Positions 12,603 to 31,561 of a DNA stretch of 31,561 bases are shown here, piece by piece (positions within the stretch are counted from its first letter, which is position 1; every line of letters begins with the position of its first letter). Both the position numbers and the translations under genes were made by a program. Source of the DNA: a virus; IMG/VR virus record IMGVR_UViG_3300025645_000284, positions 1 to 31,561 of that record. The stretch is one strand, 5' to 3'. Below the pieces are notes generated by a model. That model searched no databases. It saw only the letters and a program-made list of their open reading frames with translations, and had not been told where the DNA came from.

Positions 12603-12875
12603 CTACTTCTTCTTATTCTTTGAGCCCTTAGGACGGCCACCCTTACCACCATTATCAGCGCGGTTAGCAGACTTTGACCTAGATCTTGTATTGCTTTCCG
12701 CGTTGCTTCCACCACTTCGCAATGGCTTCTTGTGATCGACATCCTTCCCATCACCCTTCTTAGCCTTCCCCGACTTAACCGCTTCGGCTCGTGCTTGATT
12801 GCGAGCTGCACGCTTCTTCTTCTGTTCTGGCGTACCGTGATACTTGGCATACTCTGCCTTGTAATCTCTAGCCAT
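12603..12875 (-). CDS. small basic HNH-like protein
   Basis: The 90-residue product is Lys/Arg-rich with a KDVDHKKPL segment (D47, H48) followed by GGSN and later Asn residues, resembling the beta-beta-alpha metal core of HNH nucleases. No zinc-binding cysteines exist. Similar short basic HNH-like proteins are seen in podoviruses; whether they cut DNA is unclear. The C-terminus is a Gly/Lys tail. It is the last gene of the leftward arm, with AAGGGGAAGG just upstream. A virion- or DNA-binding role is as likely as a nuclease. Confidence 0.55.
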   Translation of the reverse strand: MARDYKAEYAKYHGTPEQKKKRAARNQARAEAVKSGKAKKGDGKDVDHKKPLRSGGSNAESNTRSRSKSANRADNGGKGGRPKGSKNKKK

Positions 12876-21200: not shown

Positions 21201-23143
21201 CCAGACAAAAGCAAGTTACGGTCAGCGCCTGCCCACATGCTCGTGCCTACAATAGGACGAAACAGTTGAGACATGAAGCCAACTTCCTTATCTATGTAGC
21301 CACCAGTAACGTCATCAATCGTGTAAGGTACTTCAATATTGTATTCTTGTCCTGCTTTACCAGCAGTAGTTCCAGTAGTAGTTGTTTCTGTACCAGCATT
21401 AACCTTAGCAAGTGCCTCAGTCTGCGCAGTAATCTTAACTTGTAGATCTTCTGGAATGTTATCAGTAAGGATTGCGTGCAATCGTCCCTCAGCTTCTTTC
21501 TGCTTAGTAGCTACAGCAAGGTTCTCAGACAGAGCATCACCAGCTTTCTCTAGTGCTACTATATCCGCTTTAGCGGCAGACACTGCAGCTGTCTTAGCTG
21601 CCTTTGCAACAGACAACTTCTTACCACTACCTTTAACAACTATAGCTTCAGCATCAGATAATGCTTTGTTAGCCCTTTCCATCTTATTAGCGATAACAGG
21701 AACTTCAGCTTCCATTGCTTTCATCTTGCCTTTAGATGGAGCCTTTAGGGCTTCCTTCTCTAAGCGAGATACTTCTTCTTTAACAAACCGAGTCTTGATG
21801 GCATCAGCAGTATCACTAACAGCACCCTCACCCTTAGTGCCTTTAGTAGTGTAAGGCACACCTTCCTCATCTAGTGTTTTGTAACTGAGTGTAAAGCCTT
21901 TCTCACTCTTAGCACTTACATGAACATTGTCGATATTCAACTTGGTCTTCATGTACTTCACACGAGCTTCTCTGGCCATAAACTTCTCGCCTTCGCTCAT
22001 ACCAAGACCTTGGTCTACTACAGTAAGGCCTTCTGCGATCATATCAGATATAGCATCTAACTTATTACGTACATTAGTAGCTACGCCCTTAGGGGCAGCG
22101 TTAACGATTGACAGTAACTCTGCAGTCTGACGTGGGTCAGCAGAAAACGCAGCATCAGTAGGCCCCATGCCATACTTACGCATAGCGTCAGGAGTTGTTA
22201 GGATCTCATCAGCAGCAATGCCAGCAATGTCTTTGTTACCGCCATCAGACAGTACCTTAACAGCATTACGTGACTTAGCTACTTTCTTAATAGCACCAGC
22301 TACCTTGAGAATACCAGCAGCACCTAGTGTGGCAATGTCAAACTTATCTGCCCATTGAGTGAAGTTAATTTCTCCAGCACTCATCTCACCAGTTGCAGCC
22401 ATAAGGATCTCAAGCTGCTTCATAGGATTACCAGTAATACCTGGCAGCATCTCTTTCATCTCTGTGATAAGATCTACTTTCTGTGCAGGTGGTAGGGACT
22501 GGTAACGCTTACTGAAGTCTTGGATGAATTTAGCGGAGTTGGTATAGTTGTTAATGCCTGACTTATCGTCACTGAAGCTACCCAAGAACTGGGCTGTGCG
22601 GTAGGAGATATCTGGAACCAATAACAGTCCTGCCCAATCCTTAACTCCAGCTTGATCGGCCATAATGCTCATTTGATGTTGCAAGTACAGACCCGCCGCA
22701 GCGTTCTGTTGCAGCAATGGAGATGTCTTAGAGATCTCAGGATCTTGTAATACTAGGTCATGGTACTGGCCCAGAACTGAATCTTGTAGTCTTGCGGTTT
22801 TATCAGCAGCAGCTGTTTGTGCGTTAGCAATATGGACTGCAGCATTAATAGGATCTTTACGTAACTGCTCAGTTAGGCCATCACGCTGCTCTTGCAGCAT
22901 AGAAGCAATAGCTGTACTAGAATCACGGAACGTGTTGATGGGATATCCCTTGTCAGCACGAGCAATGATTGTATCTGTATCCTCACCAGAAAACATCTTA
23001 GTAGAAGCAAAGATCTGTGCCTTAGCCAGAGTCTCGTTTCCATTAGAGCTAACTATAGGATTACCATAACGATTGACGTATGGAGTTCCTTCCTTGGTGT
23101 AAGGGTTTTTGTACTTAGGCATTTCTGGTTTGTACTGTGTCAT
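18293..23143 (-). CDS. giant internal virion protein, gp16-like by size and place
   Basis: The 1616-residue protein is the largest of the window. The N-terminus (about 1-250) is helical and polar; 460-600 is a Lys/Ala/Glu-rich coiled-coil region; hydrophobic segments occur near 1150-1180 and 1355-1390, the latter followed by a Gly-rich stretch. T7 gp16 (1318 residues) is the inner-membrane end of the ejectosome and starts with a lytic transglycosylase domain; I see no such catalytic motif here. The C-terminal third resembles large polyvalent phage proteins that enter the cell with DNA. Its Shine-Dalgarno is poor (no AGGAG within 20 bases), suggesting low output or coupling. Confidence 0.65.
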   Translation of the reverse strand: MTQYKPEMPKYKNPYTKEGTPYVNRYGNPIVSSNGNETLAKAQIFASTKMFSGEDTDTIIARADKGYPINTFRDSSTAIASMLQEQRDGLTEQLRKDPINAAVHIANAQTAAADKTARLQDSVLGQYHDLVLQDPEISKTSPLLQQNAAAGLYLQHQMSIMADQAGVKDWAGLLLVPDISYRTAQFLGSFSDDKSGINNYTNSAKFIQDFSKRYQSLPPAQKVDLITEMKEMLPGITGNPMKQLEILMAATGEMSAGEINFTQWADKFDIATLGAAGILKVAGAIKKVAKSRNAVKVLSDGGNKDIAGIAADEILTTPDAMRKYGMGPTDAAFSADPRQTAELLSIVNAAPKGVATNVRNKLDAISDMIAEGLTVVDQGLGMSEGEKFMAREARVKYMKTKLNIDNVHVSAKSEKGFTLSYKTLDEEGVPYTTKGTKGEGAVSDTADAIKTRFVKEEVSRLEKEALKAPSKGKMKAMEAEVPVIANKMERANKALSDAEAIVVKGSGKKLSVAKAAKTAAVSAAKADIVALEKAGDALSENLAVATKQKEAEGRLHAILTDNIPEDLQVKITAQTEALAKVNAGTETTTTGTTAGKAGQEYNIEVPYTIDDVTGGYIDKEVGFMSQLFRPIVGTSMWAGADRNLLLSGYEQVDFASRKIGGRLAAAMNIATKGLNKKSIEKLNYFLEKGDDAGKIFSYDELVNAGVGGVRMSTKEYEAYLGTRQVMDNLWQIKNNQIHRDLVVQGVKNIDVEGTNFMAKPYDTVESAGAAYRNMGGGSVKIPQPLAKSNSDTAIRGLTEGDLTEYYNNGYKLVRGGTTPDEMFKSATLGHSRWALVKEEKVSNLSPVVLNQRAGYIPRAYKNANYFVKETRYTKIDGVNTSAGLRTLRYFDNIDDAEMYKKQLETTARASNQPFDPADIHVLGDRELTSSELGGEVIGQWGGLYSGYRTEEAVKFGLAGVKGARVSPVEAIQDYMQHISTRYPMAQYRMGMEQRWLNHVRDVLPKSEALRIHSFQDGLAAVENSAMANSAAKQKLIRAHEQITFMNRTPTLGDERTAGMVKGISERMSRSKLPGVKAMSKFVGHLNKSDPVAAFKTGVFHLYLGTYSFSQLFVQGMALSTAVSISPIHAAKGLTKVPGFAILDHIMDPRARKIALKNMAKTTKDPDLEEAYNAWAKSGLHESALITNADAYTAHKGLPMSEGAFSKFLEKGTMAYTAGELANLRTSFMTSYEKWKSINKGAKLDETGLKKIIADTEVFRMHMTTANKSGFQKGIMSIPTQFLQINVRFAEMLMGKEITAAEKGSFLMGQWALFGTAGIPFATYALKPILGLFGVDPEEMSETDRIVATRGAMGWLLNDFMDIDAVFTSRVAIGSGMTDTLMDWITGENQSVSKLLLGPGGGIVDSLTSAWEAAGYAKAGKISHDDLSEEEAGMAWGVIGEALLNVPSSTRNLMKAYYLQKSGIMRDKQGNIIDIKPNAPMRDVIAQAMGFGSQDIDSFWKLTVDNKKHTLAKSEATNIIMSGYLSMFNAAGENDEKKRKAYEHMLRATFSMFPNPQDHADIMKSIHNRMTNGKHRIDVELRKHIESLGSTFTNSANEFMPLTKKYQAQRSEAMEKL

Positions 23144-23148
23144 TATAT

Positions 23149-24003
23149 TTAACCCGTATAGTTGCCGTAAGATTGATCAGGTCGAGTAGTGCTTAGGTTG
23201 CTGGAGGTAGTCTTAGCTGCAGCCTTACTGGCAGCTTCCACCCTATTGGAAGACGCTGTCTGTGCTTGCTGTGGTACTGACGAGGCTGAACTGATTCTAG
23301 CGTTTGCCTTTGTCTGCTTCTCTTTCTTAGCACTTGCCTGCTTTTTCTGCTGTGAAGCAATTACTGCGTTAGTCGCTTCTTGTCGTGCATTGGCCTTGTC
23401 TGACTTTTTCTTGGCACTAGCATCCGCAGCAGCCTTAGCATCCGCAGCAGCCTTAGCAGCAGCTGCAGCATCAGAGGCAGCCGCAGCAGCAGCAGCTTTA
23501 GCAGCCTCTTCTTCTGGAGAAAGAATGCCTAAGCGTGCATTAGTAGCAGCCTGTTGGAGATCGCTGATCTGCTTACCCATCTGCTCCGTGAGCTGGCTAA
23601 ACTGTAGGCTGGAGGCACGTTGTTGGCCAAGACTAGCCTGTGCCCCTCTTGCAATTGAACTGCCCATCAGACCGCTAATAGCGCCCTGTGCTTGAATAGC
23701 CTGAGACTGCAAGAATGCTTGCTGAGAGAATGCCTTACGCTGACGATCAGCCTGTAGTGCGTTCAGAGCCATACCAACTCCTCTGCCTTCACTCATAATA
23801 CCAGCAGCTATCTTCTCACGCTGTATCTGAAGCTCAGACAGAGCCTCAGCCTTATTCTCCGTACTATTACTAAAGAGACCTTTTAAGAGCCCAAACCCTC
23901 CGCCAATAATTCCGCCTACGGGGCCTCCTATTGCGAAGCCTGCCACTGCACCTGAGGCTGTACTTGATCCTATGTCTAAGGCATCTCCTAAATCTGTAGG
24001 CAT
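23149..24003 (-). CDS. internal virion protein, gp14-like
   Basis: The 284-residue product has a Gly/Ala-rich membrane-inserting segment at about 16-45 (GAVAGFAIGGPVGGIIGG), a helical middle and an Ala/Lys low-complexity tail (about 165-270). T7 gp14 has the same kind of N-terminal hydrophobic segment and forms the outer-membrane pore of the ejectosome. It stands just after the nozzle gene, as gp14 precedes gp15/gp16 in T7. AGGAG lies 9 bases before the ATG. Good fit, but by features rather than alignment. Confidence 0.6.
   Translation of the reverse strand: MPTDLGDALDIGSSTASGAVAGFAIGGPVGGIIGGGFGLLKGLFSNSTENKAEALSELQIQREKIAAGIMSEGRGVGMALNALQADRQRKAFSQQAFLQSQAIQAQGAISGLMGSSIARGAQASLGQQRASSLQFSQLTEQMGKQISDLQQAATNARLGILSPEEEAAKAAAAAAASDAAAAAKAAADAKAAADASAKKKSDKANARQEATNAVIASQQKKQASAKKEKQTKANARISSASSVPQQAQTASSNRVEAASKAAAKTTSSNLSTTRPDQSYGNYTG
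23419..23454. repeat. two perfect 18-bp tandem copies in gp14-like gene
   Basis: AGCATCCGCAGCAGCCTT occurs twice head to tail (23419-23436, 23437-23454), encoding six-residue Ala/Asp/Lys repeats in the low-complexity tail. Perfect copies indicate recent slippage; the following bases are degenerate relatives. Confidence 0.7.
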
Positions 24004-24004
24004 A

Positions 24005-26383
24005 CTATACTGCTCCTGTAATTGCTACTTCAGCACCCCAACCCAGTATCTGCAAGTCTTTATCACCATCAGATTCAATCTTAATGGAAACAGCTTTACC
24101 AGAACCTGGAAGGTTGCTCTTAGTTGTTATGATGTTATGACCGTATGTAAACGGATCATTGATGTCTTCAGGCACGTAGTCTTTAGCTAGGCGATACACT
24201 TGCATAGGAGTAGACCACTTGCCACTTATTACGTTATCACTAAAGTCCCATCGTGCAGATAGCAAGCATCCACTAGGATTAGTAGGAATCCAATCACCAG
24301 TACCGTCATCCTCAAACCCATCTTCAGTACGATAGAAGTGTGTCCAGATGTATGGTATGTCTTTACGACGAATAGTATCTCCCATAGTTACAGGATTACT
24401 TACCATAAATGCCGATACGCTACTGCCACCCAGGTCCGTAAAAGACTTATACGCTGGTTGTATAAAGCGGATCTTGTTATTAGGATTATCTAAAACTAGT
24501 AACTTTACCTGTACTATGTCTCTTTTTAAGTCAATTGGACTTTTAATTGTACCGAGCGTATAAGAATTCTTTAGAGAGATGTAGTTTGCTATATAGTATC
24601 CAGTTCCGTCGTACTCAAGGTATCCATAGAACGGCGGTGTTTCGTACACATCGTCCTCGTTATTGCCAGATTTCTTATAAGAGTACACATTAGCGATACA
24701 ACTTTCAAATGCATTTAAGGAGTAAGACCCTAATCGCAAGTCCAGCACTAATTCTTTTTGCTCTACAGTAACTGCAGTTCCTGACTCCCCGGCTGGCGGA
24801 GTATGTAGTAGCCAACGCACTGATTTCTGCGCAGCATCATAGGTACCCCAACCAAACCATCGGTAGTATCCGGCATACGTAGTTCTTATTCTTTCGTCAC
24901 TAATATTCTGCATTGCAACTCGTCGAGAACTTGCGTCAAAATAAAGGGCTAAGATGCCATCCTCGGTTGGAACAAATACCTTGTTCTCTGCACTTACTAC
25001 AGACTTCATTGTAGCAGTACGTGCGCTAGACACTTTTGAGATAATAAAAGAGCTTGGGCTAACGCCATCAGCAGCTCTCAATTCCCAAATTCCATTTGTC
25101 GCTATAATAGCTAATGAGTCACCTACTGCAACAGCTCCTAGTAGTATCTCAGCATTAGCAACAACCACGTAGCCGCCGTCATTGTAAGAAGGGGCAAAGT
25201 TTTCGTCAGTTGGGCTTAACTTGGAAATACACATGTTAGCCGAAGAGCCCTGGGCTCTTTCGTTTTGATTAGTCGTCCACGTAATCTTAGACTCTAAATG
25301 CTCAAGTACACTTGTAAAAAATAGGTAGTTTCTGGCAGAAGGGAACTTACTTCCGTTTTTGGTACTACCTGTGTAGTAGTCTGTTCCTATTATTTCTCCA
25401 GTATAAAAGGCCCTGCCCATAAAGCTAGTTACTGTCTGGGTCCACCAATTCGTTTGTGGATTGCTGCTGCTGTTTAGTATGTTATCTGTATTAAGGGTTA
25501 GCGTGGCAAGGGTGTTTATGGTGTCAAAGGACTTATCAGCAGCCGAGGAATATCTAGGGCCTGTAAGGGGATGTATGAACTTTCCTTTTGGCGCTCCTGA
25601 TGGGAATGGGCGGGATTTTAACAGATCCGCATCAAAGCTGCCGTTAGCTAACCTTCCAAAGTACTCTACATCTGCATTTGAAGGCCATACGCCGAGGTTA
25701 ACGTAAAACAAGTACATGCTTTCAGCAGTCCAGCCTTGGTTTAGCAGGTTGTAGGCATGATTTGCAAGGAGAGTAGCAGAGCGTTCTGTTGTAACAGTAT
25801 TATCCTCTACTCCAAAAAAATCTCTAATATGAATGTTTTCTTGTGTAGGTATTAGCTGGCTTGGGGTTACAGGATCTACGCTAATCATACAGACTCCAGA
25901 CTTTGCTGGAATTACCAGTGTAGAGCCGAACTGAGCGCTAATGATTCCACCAGTAGTAGATCTAGTTTGAACTGCGTTACTCTGGGTAAGAGATAGATCT
26001 GAGTCACTGCCGTACACGTCCCCGTCTTTACTCTGTAAAACCTCAATGTGGTTACCGCTAACGCCTCGCAAGCTCAGCCAAGAAAAGTCTGTGCTAAGAG
26101 GCTCAGTACCTACGCTATGTGCTATATAAACGTTATTAAAAGATCCTGCAGGAATGTCGCAGTCTTCTGGACCAGCAAAGGTGGCATAAGGCCAGAATCC
26201 AGCATCGGTGCCGGGCTCAGTCTCGTACTCATATCCATAGCGCCGTGCACGGCTTCCGTCAGAAGCAAGTACCATGTTCTGCTCTTGCATAGAAGTAGAA
26301 GGATCTGCGGCAAGAGGAGACTGCTCCGTATTCAAGCCACCGGAGAAGTTATTTAGTTCGAGCTGTTTTTTTACTTGGGACAT
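24005..26383 (-). CDS. tail tubular protein B / nozzle (T7 gp12-like)
   Basis: The 792-residue protein begins with LNNFSGGLNTEQSPLAAD and a QNMVLASDGS.ARRYG segment, the start typical of phage nozzle proteins whose N-terminus lists the many-stranded propeller. T7 gp12 is 794 residues, nearly the same. It forms the hexameric end of the tail tube with the gp11-like protein. It is strand-rich, with no enzyme motif. Its 5' end overlaps the 64-residue gene upstream by 35 bases. The Shine-Dalgarno is weak, so coupling to that gene is likely. Confidence 0.85.
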   Translation of the reverse strand: MSQVKKQLELNNFSGGLNTEQSPLAADPSTSMQEQNMVLASDGSRARRYGYEYETEPGTDAGFWPYATFAGPEDCDIPAGSFNNVYIAHSVGTEPLSTDFSWLSLRGVSGNHIEVLQSKDGDVYGSDSDLSLTQSNAVQTRSTTGGIISAQFGSTLVIPAKSGVCMISVDPVTPSQLIPTQENIHIRDFFGVEDNTVTTERSATLLANHAYNLLNQGWTAESMYLFYVNLGVWPSNADVEYFGRLANGSFDADLLKSRPFPSGAPKGKFIHPLTGPRYSSAADKSFDTINTLATLTLNTDNILNSSSNPQTNWWTQTVTSFMGRAFYTGEIIGTDYYTGSTKNGSKFPSARNYLFFTSVLEHLESKITWTTNQNERAQGSSANMCISKLSPTDENFAPSYNDGGYVVVANAEILLGAVAVGDSLAIIATNGIWELRAADGVSPSSFIISKVSSARTATMKSVVSAENKVFVPTEDGILALYFDASSRRVAMQNISDERIRTTYAGYYRWFGWGTYDAAQKSVRWLLHTPPAGESGTAVTVEQKELVLDLRLGSYSLNAFESCIANVYSYKKSGNNEDDVYETPPFYGYLEYDGTGYYIANYISLKNSYTLGTIKSPIDLKRDIVQVKLLVLDNPNNKIRFIQPAYKSFTDLGGSSVSAFMVSNPVTMGDTIRRKDIPYIWTHFYRTEDGFEDDGTGDWIPTNPSGCLLSARWDFSDNVISGKWSTPMQVYRLAKDYVPEDINDPFTYGHNIITTKSNLPGSGKAVSIKIESDGDKDLQILGWGAEVAITGAV

Positions 26384-26543
26384 TGGATTCTCGCTTATTC
26401 AGATAACTTACTATGTAGGCATTAGCTGTTCGGGGAGATGTAAACGACCCTTCAAGCTCCTTAGGCAGTTCGCCACCGCCTTCAAAGTAAATAGAGTACA
26501 TCCGCCCAACTGGTTCTAATCGTACTTTTAATTCCTTGCTCAT
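26349..26543 (-). CDS. hypothetical protein between the two tail tube genes
   Basis: The 64-residue basic product has a small beta-like N-terminal part and a Lys/Arg/Ser tail. AGGA precedes the ATG, and the gene lies 2 bases after the gp11-like stop and overlaps the nozzle start. T7 has no gene here. It may assist tail assembly or only serve for translational coupling. Function unknown. Confidence 0.55.
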   Translation of the reverse strand: MSKELKVRLEPVGRMYSIYFEGGGELPKELEGSFTSPRTANAYIVSYLNKRESNVPSKKTARTK

Positions 26544-26545
26544 AC

Positions 26546-27340
26546 TTAACTGTTCCTACCGTTAGAGATTCTGCTGCGTCCACGGCTGCGGCCATAGTCT
26601 GCAGTTCTAATACCACCGTGAGCTGACCAGCTCTTACGGCTCATGCGATTACGCTGTCGTTGTTCTTCAGCAGCAAGTAGTGGATTACCAAGTTGCTTTA
26701 TGGCAAAGAAGGCACGGCTCTTGGCAGTGGCCTTTAGCAAGCTGAATGCTTCAGAAGGAAGGTCTATTACAAATCCGTCTGCTAAGGTAAAGGTAGGTTC
26801 TTTACGAACATATGCTTGATTGTTTTTTTCTTGGAGAGACTGGCCTGTGGCTTGGTCCCATGAGTCGGTAACTATCCACTGATCGTCAAAACTTGTCCAG
26901 TACTGAGGAGCCTTGTCATTGATGATTAATAGATCACCTTCGTTCTGGTCAGTATTAACAGACGAGATCTCTACTACGTTAGTAGCATCGACGTTTCGGG
27001 CATTGATTAAGTTTATAAACGCATCAGGATACAGGTACGTCAGTGTCTGCCAGTTAGTCTTTTGATCTGGCGATGTGTAGCAGTTATACCGCAACCAAAT
27101 CAACTCTTGTAGGTCGTCAGGAAGCAGCAGGAAGTTAGGTCGTGTGATTACGTTAGACGCAGTCAGGTTTGTTAATTCTTTGTGTGATTCCCATGTACGG
27201 CTAGATACTAGCTCGTAGTAGACATCTTTTAAAAGGAGAGCCACTCTCTGAGCTTCGGTGGTATCATCAATAGAATTGACTATATCACTTCCCATTTCAG
27301 ATAGCGTGCTTTGTACGATTGTTAGTACGGTCTCTTTCAT
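26546..27340 (-). CDS. tail tubular protein A / gatekeeper (T7 gp11-like)
   Basis: The 264-residue product would form the ring joining portal and nozzle. Family features are the N-terminal helix (VQSTLSEMG), a YYELVSSRTW segment, LPDDLQELIWLRYN, and a C-terminal helical part ending in an Arg-rich tail. T7 gp11 is 196 residues; this one is longer mainly at the Arg/Ser-rich C-terminus. It follows the strong terminator behind the capsid genes, as gp11 follows Tphi in T7. GAGG precedes its ATG. Confidence 0.8.
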   Translation of the reverse strand: MKETVLTIVQSTLSEMGSDIVNSIDDTTEAQRVALLLKDVYYELVSSRTWESHKELTNLTASNVITRPNFLLLPDDLQELIWLRYNCYTSPDQKTNWQTLTYLYPDAFINLINARNVDATNVVEISSVNTDQNEGDLLIINDKAPQYWTSFDDQWIVTDSWDQATGQSLQEKNNQAYVRKEPTFTLADGFVIDLPSEAFSLLKATAKSRAFFAIKQLGNPLLAAEEQRQRNRMSRKSWSAHGGIRTADYGRSRGRSRISNGRNS

Positions 27341-27353
27341 ATAGGCCTCAGAT

Positions 27354-27374
27354 AAAAAAGGGGCCGAAGCCCCT
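27354..27374 (-). terminator. strong intrinsic terminator behind capsid genes
   Basis: On the - strand AGGGGC-TTCG-GCCCCT is followed by an uninterrupted U-run (T6), giving a classic intrinsic terminator within 20 bases of the stop of the 150-residue gene. The hairpin is base-for-base the same as that at 5766-5783 on the + strand. It stands where T7 has Tphi, between capsid gene 10 and gene 11. Confidence 0.9.
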
Positions 27375-27379
27375 AGATG

Positions 27380-27832
27380 TTACGCTCGACGGTAACGAAT
27401 AACCAAGCGTGCTTTACCAGTTGCAGATGCGATTGCATTAGCGTTAGGAGTCAACACTACTGGGTAAGTAGCAACAGAGTCAGTACCTGACAAGTTAGCC
27501 AGACCAGTAAGAGCTGGCTTGGTGATTGCCTTGACAGCGAGTGCCAGAGGAGTAGTAAGACCAGCACCACCATTCAAGGTGAAGTTAGCAGTAGATGATG
27601 CAGCAAAGGCTACCTCTACTTCCAACGTGATGTCTTCGATCAGATAGAACTGAGGAAGAGCAAAGGTGTAAGGCATATCACAAGTACCGGCTGTGAGTTC
27701 AAATACAGCTTCCTTGATTACGCCACCAGTTTCGACTTCGCCATGTGAACCACCAATCTTGCGTGGGCCGTAGGTAGCGCCGATAGCTGTAGAACCTGCA
27801 GGCCAGCTAGTAGAACCATTAGAGTAAGACAT
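27380..27832 (-). CDS. putative capsid decoration or head protein
   Basis: The 150-residue product is beta-rich with Gly/Thr/Ala-rich strands and no charge clusters, and ends in LVIRYRRA. It lies 17 bases after the major capsid gene and right before the strong terminator, so it should be made at capsid-like levels. GAGG sits 9 bases before the ATG. Such a place and fold suit a decoration protein or head fibre. I do not recognise the family, so the role is inferred. Confidence 0.55.
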   Translation of the reverse strand: MSYSNGSTSWPAGSTAIGATYGPRKIGGSHGEVETGGVIKEAVFELTAGTCDMPYTFALPQFYLIEDITLEVEVAFAASSTANFTLNGGAGLTTPLALAVKAITKPALTGLANLSGTDSVATYPVVLTPNANAIASATGKARLVIRYRRA

Positions 27833-27849
27833 TTTATATTACCTCGTTG

Positions 27850-28800
27850 TTACGCAACAGCTGTGCGTGAAGTTAGGATGATACCCAGTGTATCGAGACG
27901 TGACACACCGAAACCCAGACGGGCTGAGCTGACATATTCATCACGCTTCAGGTCCTTGTTACGCTCACCTTCAGTAGAAGGATCTTGACGCCATGCAATC
28001 ATCAGAGGCTTAGTCTGATCGTCAGCAACACACATAAAGATGTTGGCTACCAGATCGGTACCAGCTACTGCATTGATAGTCTCGTCACCAACTTGTGGCA
28101 AACGGTTAGAGCTGATGATCAACCAACCGAACACGTCCATCATGGCACGGTGCTCACGCATAAAGCCTTCTTGCATCAGGCTCTGCATCATAGGGTTAGA
28201 GTCAACGTTGTAAACAGTGTTGAACTTAGACTCAAGAGTAGCACCAACGATAGGATCAACGATACCTACACGAGCACCACCAGGAACCTGGGCCTTGTCA
28301 AAAGACAAACGCAAGTCAATCAAGTCTTGCAACTCAATGGTGAAGTTAGTACCAGAAGCAACAAAGCGATGCTTAAAGCCATCGATTGCGTTCAGAGAAG
28401 TAGCAGTCTGAGCAGCATTCAAGGTAGCAAATGCGCGAGTCTCAACGTACTCCTGCATGGCACGGGTGCCTTCGCTTGCACGAGCTTCGAGCAAAGCATC
28501 AACGTTAGAACCATCTTGACGCATAACGTCAGTGATGAAGTAAGCGTCGCCAAAGAAGTCAGTGATCTGCAAGAACACAGCACCAGTCTGGATTGGGTTA
28601 TAGACGAAAGGAGCATTCTCTTCCAGCTCTTGGATAACAGTCTCACCGATGCTAGGGATACGGATGGTATCGCCATAACCGAAATCGGTAACGTCACGCC
28701 AGAACATAGCTGGTAACATGCCATCGTGTAAATTGCGTAGAATGAAATCCGACTGGACCTCAGCTTCGACAAACGTGCGGTTGGATTGGGAAGTAATCAT
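27850..28800 (-). CDS. major capsid protein
   Basis: The 316-residue protein builds the icosahedral head. It has the pattern of HK97-fold podovirus capsid proteins: N-arm, GDTIRIPSIG (E-loop), VETRAFATLN in the spine helix, VGIVDP and a final DTLGIILTSR strand region. It follows the scaffold gene and precedes the putative decoration gene. GAGG precedes the ATG by 10 bases. A TATAAT-like hexamer overlaps the scaffold stop (28821-28831), but I see no good -35 element for it. Confidence 0.9.
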   Translation of the reverse strand: MITSQSNRTFVEAEVQSDFILRNLHDGMLPAMFWRDVTDFGYGDTIRIPSIGETVIQELEENAPFVYNPIQTGAVFLQITDFFGDAYFITDVMRQDGSNVDALLEARASEGTRAMQEYVETRAFATLNAAQTATSLNAIDGFKHRFVASGTNFTIELQDLIDLRLSFDKAQVPGGARVGIVDPIVGATLESKFNTVYNVDSNPMMQSLMQEGFMREHRAMMDVFGWLIISSNRLPQVGDETINAVAGTDLVANIFMCVADDQTKPLMIAWRQDPSTEGERNKDLKRDEYVSSARLGFGVSRLDTLGIILTSRTAVA

Positions 28801-28823
28801 TAGGGTAAATCCTCATTAATAAA

Positions 28824-29576
28824 TTATAGTGTTCCAGAGTCCTGCAAACGTTTAATAGTTTCTGCTCGTTGGGCCGCTAGTCGCTCACCAGGCTTAATCT
28901 GACCAGTAGGTCGGAAGTGCTTGCGTGGCTCAGGCTGCTTGTTCTGCACAGAGGTACTGTTAAATGTTGAAGTAGGAATGGAATTAGATTGTGGTGCCGT
29001 TTCAGTATCAAGCCCCAAGAATTTCCAAGCAGTGCCTGGAGATTGTGTCTCTGCTTCTAGCAAAGTCTGTTCTGATATGCCTGCCGCCGCTAAACGGGTA
29101 TTATAGACAGTACCAGCTTTATCTCCAAACTTGTCAACCAGCATAGTCTTCAGATTGTTAACTCGCTGTGTGTACAAAGTTTGCTGCTCTTGTGCAGATA
29201 TCCCAGCTTGTACTTGCTGAATTATCGCATTTACATCGATACCGGCACTGGTGTTCTCGGTCTGAGGATTACCTTGTGGGGTACTTGTTTGCAAACCTAA
29301 TGCTTCAGTCGCTTGTAGCCTAGCCTTCCAGGTAGCCAGTTCTTCTCGTAACACGGAGTTTTCACTCTCTAGTGTTGAGATATGCTGCTCTTTGGGAAGG
29401 ATTGAACTAAGCGCGTCGCTTAAGTTAGCGTATTTCTGCCTGCCTTCAGGGGTTGTGATGCCTTGGAGCATTGTATCATAACCATTGTTGGCGCTTGCTA
29501 CGGGTGCCGTGTCTGGCATTGCAGCTGCAGGAGTTGATTCTGGTGCTTGCTCACTAAAAAGTGTCGGGTCTGACAT
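28824..29576 (-). CDS. scaffolding protein
   Basis: The 250-residue product guides capsid assembly and is lost on maturation. It is acidic at the N-terminus (Pro/Ala-rich), has a coiled coil at about 58-95 (ISTLESENSVLREELATWKAR), a disordered middle and a basic Arg/Lys-rich C-terminus, which in scaffolds contacts the capsid protein. It lies directly before the major capsid gene, as in T7 (gene 9 before 10). GAGG sits 6 bases before the ATG. Confidence 0.85.
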   Translation of the reverse strand: MSDPTLFSEQAPESTPAAAMPDTAPVASANNGYDTMLQGITTPEGRQKYANLSDALSSILPKEQHISTLESENSVLREELATWKARLQATEALGLQTSTPQGNPQTENTSAGIDVNAIIQQVQAGISAQEQQTLYTQRVNNLKTMLVDKFGDKAGTVYNTRLAAAGISEQTLLEAETQSPGTAWKFLGLDTETAPQSNSIPTSTFNSTSVQNKQPEPRKHFRPTGQIKPGERLAAQRAETIKRLQDSGTL

Positions 29577-29577
29577 G

Positions 29578-29832
29578 TTATTCCTCGATTGAGCTTATTA
29601 ATTCAATAATTTCGGTTAGGGCTCTAGTATAGCCATTTGCATCTGACTGGACAAGAGGCCAAGACGGTTCGTTGTAATCTGGTTTAGCATACTTAGTCTT
29701 GTCGTATGCCGCACGCTTATTATAACACAGTTTCTGTAGTTTGTCAAGAGCTTGTTTAGAAGAAACTAACAATTGCTTGGTAGCTTCCTTATCAGCCTTG
29801 GTCTTGTCGCCCTTCGTCCAGTCTAATTTCAT
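29578..29832 (-). CDS. small hypothetical protein upstream of scaffold
   Basis: The 84-residue product is helical and Lys-rich at the N-terminus (KGDKTKADKEATKQ), with an acidic end (SSIEE). Its start overlaps the stop of the upstream gene, and its stop is 1 base from the scaffold ATG. No motif recognised. It may be a head-associated protein. Confidence 0.55.
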   Translation of the reverse strand: MKLDWTKGDKTKADKEATKQLLVSSKQALDKLQKLCYNKRAAYDKTKYAKPDYNEPSWPLVQSDANGYTRALTEIIELISSIEE

Positions 29833-30161
29833 TACTTAGCCTTCTTCTTCTGGGCATCAGCCCTTATTTTATCCCCAATCTCACCCTTAATGGTACCAAA
29901 GGAGTTCTGGAAGCCAAAGGATCCGTCAAGTCCTGCGTAATCAGCCGCAGTCTTGAGCATGTTGCCTACTTTCTTGAAGGTAAGGTCACTGCTACCGTCG
30001 CCCACCTTGGGTATTGGCTTAGATGGCTGTGAAGAATCCTTGTGTGTATAGCTCTGACCAGCCCCAGTCATGGCAGCTTGGTTCTTAGCTTTCTGTGCTT
30101 TAAGTGCGTCAGCTGCAGCGAATACAGATACTGGAGCTTTCTTTTTCTTTTCAGTTGGCAT
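29832..30161 (-). CDS. Lys-rich hypothetical protein in head region
   Basis: The 109-residue product has 19 lysines, clustered at both ends (EKKKK, QKKKAK), and a central Gly/Phe/Ser part. It contains no enzymatic motif. Its upstream Shine-Dalgarno lies in the second copy of the 27-bp repeat (CTCAGG). It lies between the repeat and the 84-residue gene. Possible packaged or DNA-binding head protein; this is inference from charge and place. Confidence 0.55.
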   Translation of the reverse strand: MPTEKKKKAPVSVFAAADALKAQKAKNQAAMTGAGQSYTHKDSSQPSKPIPKVGDGSSDLTFKKVGNMLKTAADYAGLDGSFGFQNSFGTIKGEIGDKIRADAQKKKAK

Positions 30162-30170
30162 AGTGTTATT

Positions 30171-30197
30171 CCTGAGGTAGTGTTGCGTTATTCATTA
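30171..30197 (-). repeat. 27-bp repeat, copy 2 (non-coding)
   Basis: This is the second copy of the portal 3'-end sequence: 26 of 27 bases match 30931-30957, differing only at 30180 (G versus C). Here it is in the gap between the 95-residue and the 109-residue genes, and it supplies the CTCAGG binding site of the latter. It looks like a duplicated gene end rather than functional coding sequence. Confidence 0.85.
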
Positions 30198-30216
30198 TAA
30201 GTGTGGTATGAGCTTC

Positions 30217-30504
30217 TCACCACTTCTCTTTATCAGCCCAATAAGCAGCTGACATTTTGCCTTTGGCAATGTTTTTTCCGTGACGTGCCTTAAAGGATGC
30301 ACGCTTAGCCTTCATCTTATCAGACTCACCCGCTTTAGGTTTGCCAGCAGTACTAGCACCTTGCTCCCCGAAGCGGATTGTCTTGACAGTATCTCCTTCT
30401 TTAGCCACAACTACATGTGACTTTGTTGGGTGACTAGGAGTGCGCTTTGGTTTGTTATAACCAGACACCCCTGCTCGCTCTAGCCGCGAGTCCTTCGCTG
30501 CCAT
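30217..30504 (-). CDS. conserved basic podovirus protein
   Basis: The 95-residue product belongs to a basic family I recognise from marine podoviruses: KRTPSHPTKSHVVVAKEGD, IRFGEQGAS, then SDKMKAKRASFKARHGK and a closing SAAYWADKEKW. The family usually lies near the portal and its function is not established. The ATG overlaps the preceding stop (TAATG). High Lys/Arg content suggests DNA or head association. It forms a two-gene cassette with the 138-residue gene, flanked by the 27-bp repeats. Confidence 0.75.
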   Translation of the reverse strand: MAAKDSRLERAGVSGYNKPKRTPSHPTKSHVVVAKEGDTVKTIRFGEQGASTAGKPKAGESDKMKAKRASFKARHGKNIAKGKMSAAYWADKEKW

Positions 30505-30920
30505 TACTTCATCGCCTTCTTTTTACTAGCAGGAGCTTTCTTTTTAAAAGGATATTGAGGAATTACTGCTTTAGCAGCTACAGCACTCTCATTTGTAAAC
30601 TTAGGGAGAGGTGTCTTCTTTTGGTTCATATTACCTCCAATCTTGCGCTCGACGATAGACTGGTTGCCTCTGTGCTTCATGGCAGCCGTGCCCTTGGCCT
30701 TTTGCCAATCTTCCTGAGAGATACCGAGCTTACCTGATTTCAAAAACGAGTCAAAGCTTTCGCGATCAAGGGCCTTGTTTGCTTTTTTGTTTCCTGGATG
30801 TGGAAGGCCAGGAGCGATGTTCATGGCACCCGACTCTCCATAAGCAATGCTTGCCTTTGCGCGCTTGGTTGCAAATACGCCCTTTTTAGGTTTGTATTCT
30901 TTAGCCTTCGTATCTTTCAT
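30504..30920 (-). CDS. Lys-rich hypothetical protein next to portal
   Basis: The 138-residue product has 28 lysines, about a fifth of its residues, with a Lys tail (FKKKAPASKKKAMK). The middle (SFDSFLKSGKLGISQEDWQKAKG) looks helical. It has no enzymatic motif. AGGGG precedes the ATG, within the portal end and next to copy 1 of the 27-bp repeat. A histone-like packaged protein or head assembly factor is possible; neither is shown. Confidence 0.6.
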   Translation of the reverse strand: MKDTKAKEYKPKKGVFATKRAKASIAYGESGAMNIAPGLPHPGNKKANKALDRESFDSFLKSGKLGISQEDWQKAKGTAAMKHRGNQSIVERKIGGNMNQKKTPLPKFTNESAVAAKAVIPQYPFKKKAPASKKKAMK

Positions 30921-30925
30921 GTTAA

Positions 30926-31561
30926 TTACCCCTGAGGTACTGTTGCGTTATTCATTAACTGCTGTTGGCCTTGGGCCGCAAGCTTCTGAGTTTCTACTGC
31001 TTCTACTACACCCACGTTTGGACGGAACAGATCGTAACGCTCAAGACCAAGTGAGTCTTCTACTAGCGAGGCTAGTGCCTTGCCTGACATGTGAGGCATT
31101 AACTTCTCTCCGAGAGGTCCTCCTAACAGGCCTGTGAGGTTTTGTATCATAATGCTTTGTTCTGAGAAGTGACGAGCACCAATGGGACGTAGCAAGCCAT
31201 CACCAGCAAGATCTTCTTTAGTTATCTGCGTAAAGAGGATTGCACCTGTGTCACTACTAATAGAACGGATAGTGTCAATAGAGTTGAGGTTACGACGACC
31301 CTGCTCAAGCATAGAGTTAAGTGCTGGTTCTAAAACACCTATCTCAAAGGTAGTGATCTTCTCTTGAAAGATACGAGAGCCTGCGCTTGCCAGCTGCTGT
31401 ACTTCAAAGGCTGTCTTCTCACCTGGTGTACGGAAGCCCATCGCTTCTTTAGGAGCACCAGCAAAGAGTTCCATCTTATCCATCAAAGCATCTATCTCAA
31501 AGTTAACTTGGATAGCACTAGAGTCAGGACGCATAGGCGTTACAGAGCCATTCTCATCCAC
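30926..31561 (-). CDS. portal protein (head-tail connector), C-terminal part
   Basis: Only the last 211 residues are present; the gene continues beyond the right edge. The fragment contains FRTPGEKTAFEVQQLASAG, FEIGVLEPALNSMLEQGRRN and a helical crown region, all typical of podovirus portal C-termini. Portal makes the 12-subunit ring through which DNA is packaged and ejected. It is read before scaffold and capsid, as in T7 (gene 8, 9, 10). The 3' end contains copy 1 of the 27-bp repeat, which encodes the end of the chain. Confidence 0.88.
   Translation of the reverse strand: MDENGSVTPMRPDSSAIQVNFEIDALMDKMELFAGAPKEAMGFRTPGEKTAFEVQQLASAGSRIFQEKITTFEIGVLEPALNSMLEQGRRNLNSIDTIRSISSDTGAILFTQITKEDLAGDGLLRPIGARHFSEQSIMIQNLTGLLGGPLGEKLMPHMSGKALASLVEDSLGLERYDLFRPNVGVVEAVETQKLAAQGQQQLMNNATVPQG
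30931..30957 (-). repeat. 27-bp repeat, copy 1 (portal 3' end)
   Basis: This copy lies inside the portal gene and encodes its residues NNATVPQ. The other copy is 760 bp further left at 30171-30197, with one mismatch. Together the copies bracket the two basic genes of 138 and 95 residues. Confidence 0.85.

Follow-up and report, generated by a model that had tools for sequence, protein, structure and literature searches.

Stepwise gain of a small gene cassette between the portal and scaffold genes of a Zobellviridae phage by probable short-homology recombination

The window, by which we mean the whole stretch of 31,561 nucleotides of the IMG/VR virus record IMGVR_UViG_3300025645_000284, carries two small genes bracketed by a short direct repeat behind its portal gene. 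We consider it likely that these genes represent a moron-type insertion in the portal-scaffold gap of Zobellviridae, built stepwise by recombination at short homologies. A sequence-only reading had proposed that recombination inserted the genes and in doing so doubled the end of the portal gene, and this proposal is now well supported by the gap of the other Zobellviridae compared, which does not contain these genes, by the foreign affinity of the 95-aa protein, and by the portal frame and stop codon found in the non-coding repeat copy. The genes of the locus are as follows.

30926-31561, minus strand: portal (head-tail adaptor) gene, C-terminal 211 aa (phrog_332 head-tail adaptor, E=2.6e-24)
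30504-30920, minus strand: gene of a 138-aa Lys-rich ORFan, called as an open reading frame
30217-30504, minus strand: gene of a 95-aa basic protein (phrog_7595, E=1.5e-43)
29832-30161, minus strand: gene of a 109-aa Lys-rich ORFan, 100% identical in the sister contigs
29578-29832, minus strand: 84-aa gene (phrog_8956), in the place of the gene directly after the portal in relatives
28824-29576, minus strand: scaffolding protein gene (phrog_7931), positioned as the annotated scaffold of ICBM2, CW02 and MEP402
27850-28800, minus strand: major capsid protein gene (PF25209, phrog_267)

The portal, scaffold and capsid genes are homologous to and syntenic with those of Zobellviridae members, and the window further encodes a B12-dependent ribonucleotide reductase, PhoH, a family A DNA polymerase, a 5'-3' exonuclease and an endonuclease I. 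Judged by these structural and enzyme genes and by the gene order, the window belongs to a marine Zobellviridae phage near the cobaviruses. The contig ends inside the portal gene, whose product shares 45-52% identity with known Zobellviridae portals. The phage is probably lytic.

In all the reference genomes compared for the portal gap (n=11: CRP-5, ICBM2, P12053L, PA11, CW02, ICP2, MEP402, Klyazma, VP41s3, CVT22 and ctOsX528) a single gene of about 75-84 aa separates the portal from the scaffold and capsid. The IMG/VR relatives, two with other insertions aside, show the portal, one gene of this size, the scaffold and the capsid in direct succession, and a survey of cobaviruses described conserved synteny across this region, from the lysis genes to the terminase (PMC6775973). 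The distance between portal and capsid is mostly 963-1204 bp in the 81 loci holding both genes, whereas the window has 2125 bp and a sister contig 1768 bp; longer distances among the 81 loci were found only in that sister (L002) and in the two loci with other insertions, L057 and L006. The 84-aa gene of the window was equated with the post-portal gene of the relatives on its position and its phrog_8956 assignment, the direct sequence match to the IMG/VR counterparts being weak (best E about 0.04). The direct order in the relatives thus indicates that the 138-, 95- and 109-aa genes are additions in the lineage of the window.

The 138-aa protein had no relative in IMG/VR, INPHARED, GTDB genomes, Pfam, PHROGs or NCBIfam, and the 109-aa protein none other than in the two sister contigs. 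The basic, Lys-rich nature of the 138-, 95- and 109-aa proteins and their position in the late operon suggest at most a virion or DNA-associated role. We also noted a perfect sigma-70 promoter inside the 84-aa gene and before the scaffold (29747-29719, minus strand; TTGACA, 17 nt, TATAAT, with an extended -10); a sigma-70 promoter is annotated at the matching place in ICP2, and the IMG/VR relatives have one right behind the portal.

The insert is flanked by the following two elements.

30931-30957, minus strand: portal-side repeat copy, coding, which also carries the ribosome-binding site (RBS) of the 138-aa gene
30171-30197, minus strand: non-coding repeat copy, a fossil portal end, which carries the RBS of the 109-aa gene

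Our recount confirmed that the two copies agree at 26 of 27 positions in the same orientation, 760 bp apart, and that two overlapping genes lie between them, those of 138 and 95 aa, both on the minus strand and sharing one base. The roles first given to the copies were nevertheless exchanged: the portal gene, read from the minus strand, terminates at 30926, which makes 30931-30957 the coding copy and 30171-30197 the non-coding one. This is the sole direct pair of 27-mers in the window at 26/27 or better. The best pair in random sequences with the same dinucleotide make-up reached 22/27, and dinucleotide shuffles of the window gave no match to the repeat pattern. Without gaps the similarity extends to 32 bp at 91% (30166-30197 and 30926-30957). 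Occurrence of the repeat at many unrelated loci, which would count against an insertion, was not seen, the pattern being present at these two places only in the window and the 22-nt core matching only the two sister contigs in a scan of IMG/VR.

In the sense direction the portal copy reads TAATGAATAACGCAACAGTACCTCAGGGGTAATTAACATG, that is, the last portal codons, the stop and then the start of the 138-aa gene, and the non-coding copy reads TAATGAATAACGCAACACTACCTCAGGAATAACACTATG, leading to the start of the 109-aa gene. Translated in the portal frame, the latter gives LIMNNATLPQE followed by a stop codon. The retention of both frame and stop shows that this copy is more than an RBS and derives from the end of a portal gene, of which it is a fossil. 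The differences between the copies are clustered, with about 8 in some 36 nt before the ATG vs 0 in the 29 nt that follow (p=0.007 by Fisher's test on these counts); their confinement to the part before the ATG hints that the copies may come from two related parent phages and not from a simple duplication of one target.

Two sister contigs from other metagenomes, IMGVR_UViG_3300022178_001140 and 3300025887_000208, are near-identical to the window. One shows no difference from it over 21570-30433 (8.9 kb) and the other none over 23938-30433 (6.5 kb); the differences begin at 30434 and are few around the start of the 95-aa gene. Both keep the 95-aa gene and lack the 138-aa gene. Behind their portal the 109-aa gene is represented by its RBS, its ATG and its first ten codons, which run directly into the final codons of the 138-aa gene, giving the hybrid open reading frame MPTEKKKKAPASKKKR followed by a stop codon. 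In these contigs the duplication is about 64 bp and takes in those ten codons. The point of fusion is the following word, the longest that the beginning of the 109-aa gene has in common with the last part of the 138-aa gene.

30532-30545, minus strand: 14-nt word AAAAAGAAAGCTCC, common to the 138-aa gene and codons 6-10 of the 109-aa gene

The 138-aa gene, therefore, varies between sister phages, and to this extent the earlier suggestion of a module gained or lost between related phages holds: the window has the whole gene, of which the sisters keep a 3' remnant. The accompanying idea of a single two-gene cassette inserted as a unit is not supported, since the two genes differ in history; the presence of the remnant in phages without the 138-aa gene indicates that the cassette probably arose in steps. 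Furthermore, the remnant preserves the left arm of the uninterrupted site that had been predicted, in which the portal is directly followed by the 109-aa gene. None of the relatives searched had this site complete, with the repeat in single copy and the whole 109-aa gene.

On the portal side, 55 changes in 644 bp separate the window from the sisters. Nearly all of them lie in 31037-31268, a patch about 22% divergent between otherwise near-identical contigs, and 41 of the 55 fall at third codon positions. All but two of the differences near the site (those at 31341 and 31442) lie in one segment.

30434-31268, no strand: tract separating the window from the sisters, comprising the portal patch, the 138-aa gene in place of the remnant, and the few changes at the start of the 95-aa gene

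We read the segment as a recombination tract of about 0.85-1.0 kb, taking in the left part of the cassette. Apart from the sisters, four contigs matched a degenerate pattern made from the end of the portal gene, and no relatives at 60-95% identity were found.

We propose the following history. In the ancestor the portal would have been directly followed by the 109-aa gene. DNA with the 138- and 95-aa genes would have entered between them by two short-homology crossovers; with the portal stop and the RBS lying between these crossovers, a stretch of about 38-64 bp would have been left at both flanks of the insert. The duplicate would thereby supply the 109-aa gene with an RBS of its own despite the insertion, keeping this gene and the remaining late operon translatable. 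In the sister lineage a molecule with the insert would later have crossed over at AAAAAGAAAGCTCC with one lacking it, losing most of the 138-aa gene. The cassette could also be deleted by recombination between the repeats, which would restore the original junction. The T7-like 5'-3' exonuclease and the endonuclease I (Phage_endo_I domain) encoded in the window make annealing-type recombination between short repeats plausible.

Whether the 138-aa gene came first or last is not settled. The main rival to the history just proposed takes the sister arrangement, with the hybrid remnant, the 95-aa gene and the duplication of about 64 bp, as the original one, and has the window gain the 138-aa gene later by a tract from another phage. 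The single tract, with the 138-aa gene and the 22% portal patch inside it, is what such a transfer would leave. On the other hand, the 3' end of the 138-aa gene is already part of the remnant, which requires an earlier molecule with the 138-aa gene joined to the 95-aa gene, and one more event is needed; moreover, the searches for relatives gave no donor with a 138-aa gene. We regard this order as possible, although on balance unlikely.

The origin of the 95-aa gene can be approached through its family, phrog_7595, which has at least 600 relatives at varied genome sites and is scattered over many marine phages. Elsewhere in Zobellviridae the homologue either precedes the terminase or closes the late operon at its distal end, and among the loci compared it occupies the portal gap only in the window lineage. 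Many Zobellviridae have it at that other position and the window carries a single homologue, as would be expected if the gene had been relocated within the genome. However, the tree groups the window protein with unrelated marine phages, its nearest reference being CRP-1, apart from the Zobellviridae copies, and its identity reaches 91% with marine phages outside Zobellviridae vs 68% with the cobavirus copies. The tree, made from few columns and from a set chosen by similarity to the window, is to be taken as support and not as proof, and the choice of that set somewhat weakens the case against relocation. Acquisition from outside appears the more likely origin, and internal relocation improbable.

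The family phrog_7595 resembles part of phrog_220, a family of large minor head/DNA pilot proteins, and also the C-terminal part of phrog_9979, which hints at a virion-associated domain. A PDB search with the 95-aa protein returned ribosomal L24-like matches at E 0.4 or worse, which we took as chance. The place that the 95-aa homologue has in cobaviruses, distal in the late operon, is taken in the window by a gene for a 90-aa basic protein weakly like HNH endonucleases (12603-12875, minus strand; phrog_4590).

The repeat itself could be read as a regulatory or translation-initiation element shared by two gene starts and kept by selection, and each copy does carry the RBS of the next gene. Such an element is nevertheless very unlikely to account for the repeat, which includes in-frame portal codons and a stop, far beyond what an RBS needs, and is absent from the other late-gene starts, in addition to the confinement of its core to the window and its sisters. 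An assembly chimera, in which the repeat and the 138-aa gene would come from misjoined co-assembled strains, could be suspected from the window version of the junction, which is known from one metagenomic contig only and lies near its end; we give this very little credence, the non-coding copy being identical in two contigs from other metagenomes, the 138-aa frame being intact and overlapping the next start codon, and the portal changes falling mostly at third codon positions, a pattern expected of real evolution. Homing or transposition was rejected, as no transposase or homing nuclease family was recognised in the 138-, 95- and 109-aa proteins.

The portal-scaffold gap accepts varied cargo, namely the 138- and 95-aa genes, an endonuclease gene in L057 and a tail-spike-like gene in L006. 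The first of these other insertions is an endonuclease VII/HNH-like gene (L057, 6740-7237) with a second promoter-like sequence behind it; the second lies directly behind the portal and is spread over two reading frames (L006, 4585-6305). Repeats comparable to those of the window were not found flanking either insertion, L057 sharing only a 12-nt promoter word and L006 nothing convincing. We are doubtful of a more general proposal, that the gap is a preferred entry point at which incomers regularly bring or duplicate a flanking translation or promoter signal; if true, it would be a self-repairing insertion site, with the operon staying expressed despite the incoming genes.

As in the morons described in phages (PMC3029335, PMC6316719), whose gain is well established in phage evolution (PMC6316719), small genes stand here between core genes that are adjacent in relatives, and their distribution is patchy: the added DNA separates genes contiguous in related genomes, the 95-aa gene roams among phages and shows foreign affinity, and the 138-aa gene is absent from the sisters. 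A promoter and terminator of its own, which the strict sense of the term implies, were not found in a scan of the coding strand of the cassette, which gave only one weak promoter-like site (9/12, at 30925-30896) and nothing resembling a terminator. Unlike strict morons, the cassette genes would rely on the late operon and the duplicated RBS, and the cassette would thus be a moron only in the broader modern sense of PMC6316719. The window shares with cobaviruses and other Zobellviridae the gene order, capsid, scaffold, portal, B12-dependent ribonucleotide reductase and PhoH, although its lineage breaks the published synteny between portal and scaffold (PMC6775973). The closest precedent is the mycobacteriophage LRRHood, in which a 1.35-kb insertion with genes 43-46 is flanked by 29-bp direct repeats, single-copy in close relatives, and for which gain or loss by recombination at the repeat was proposed (PMC3029335). 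Here too a few extra genes have a direct repeat of about 30 bp on each side. In LRRHood an intact single-copy relative exists, whereas in our case only the left arm of the empty site was found, as the sister remnant; the repeat of the window is the end of a core virion gene together with an RBS, and its sisters keep a hybrid remnant recording a second crossover. The cassette is a clear but ordinary example of phage gene gain. It suggests that an insertion which duplicates the RBS of the following gene may do no harm to a tightly packed late operon. It also offers an unusually readable record of stepwise gain and partial loss: thanks to sister genomes that are identical over many kb beside the site, one can still recognise the scar, the remnant and the crossover word.
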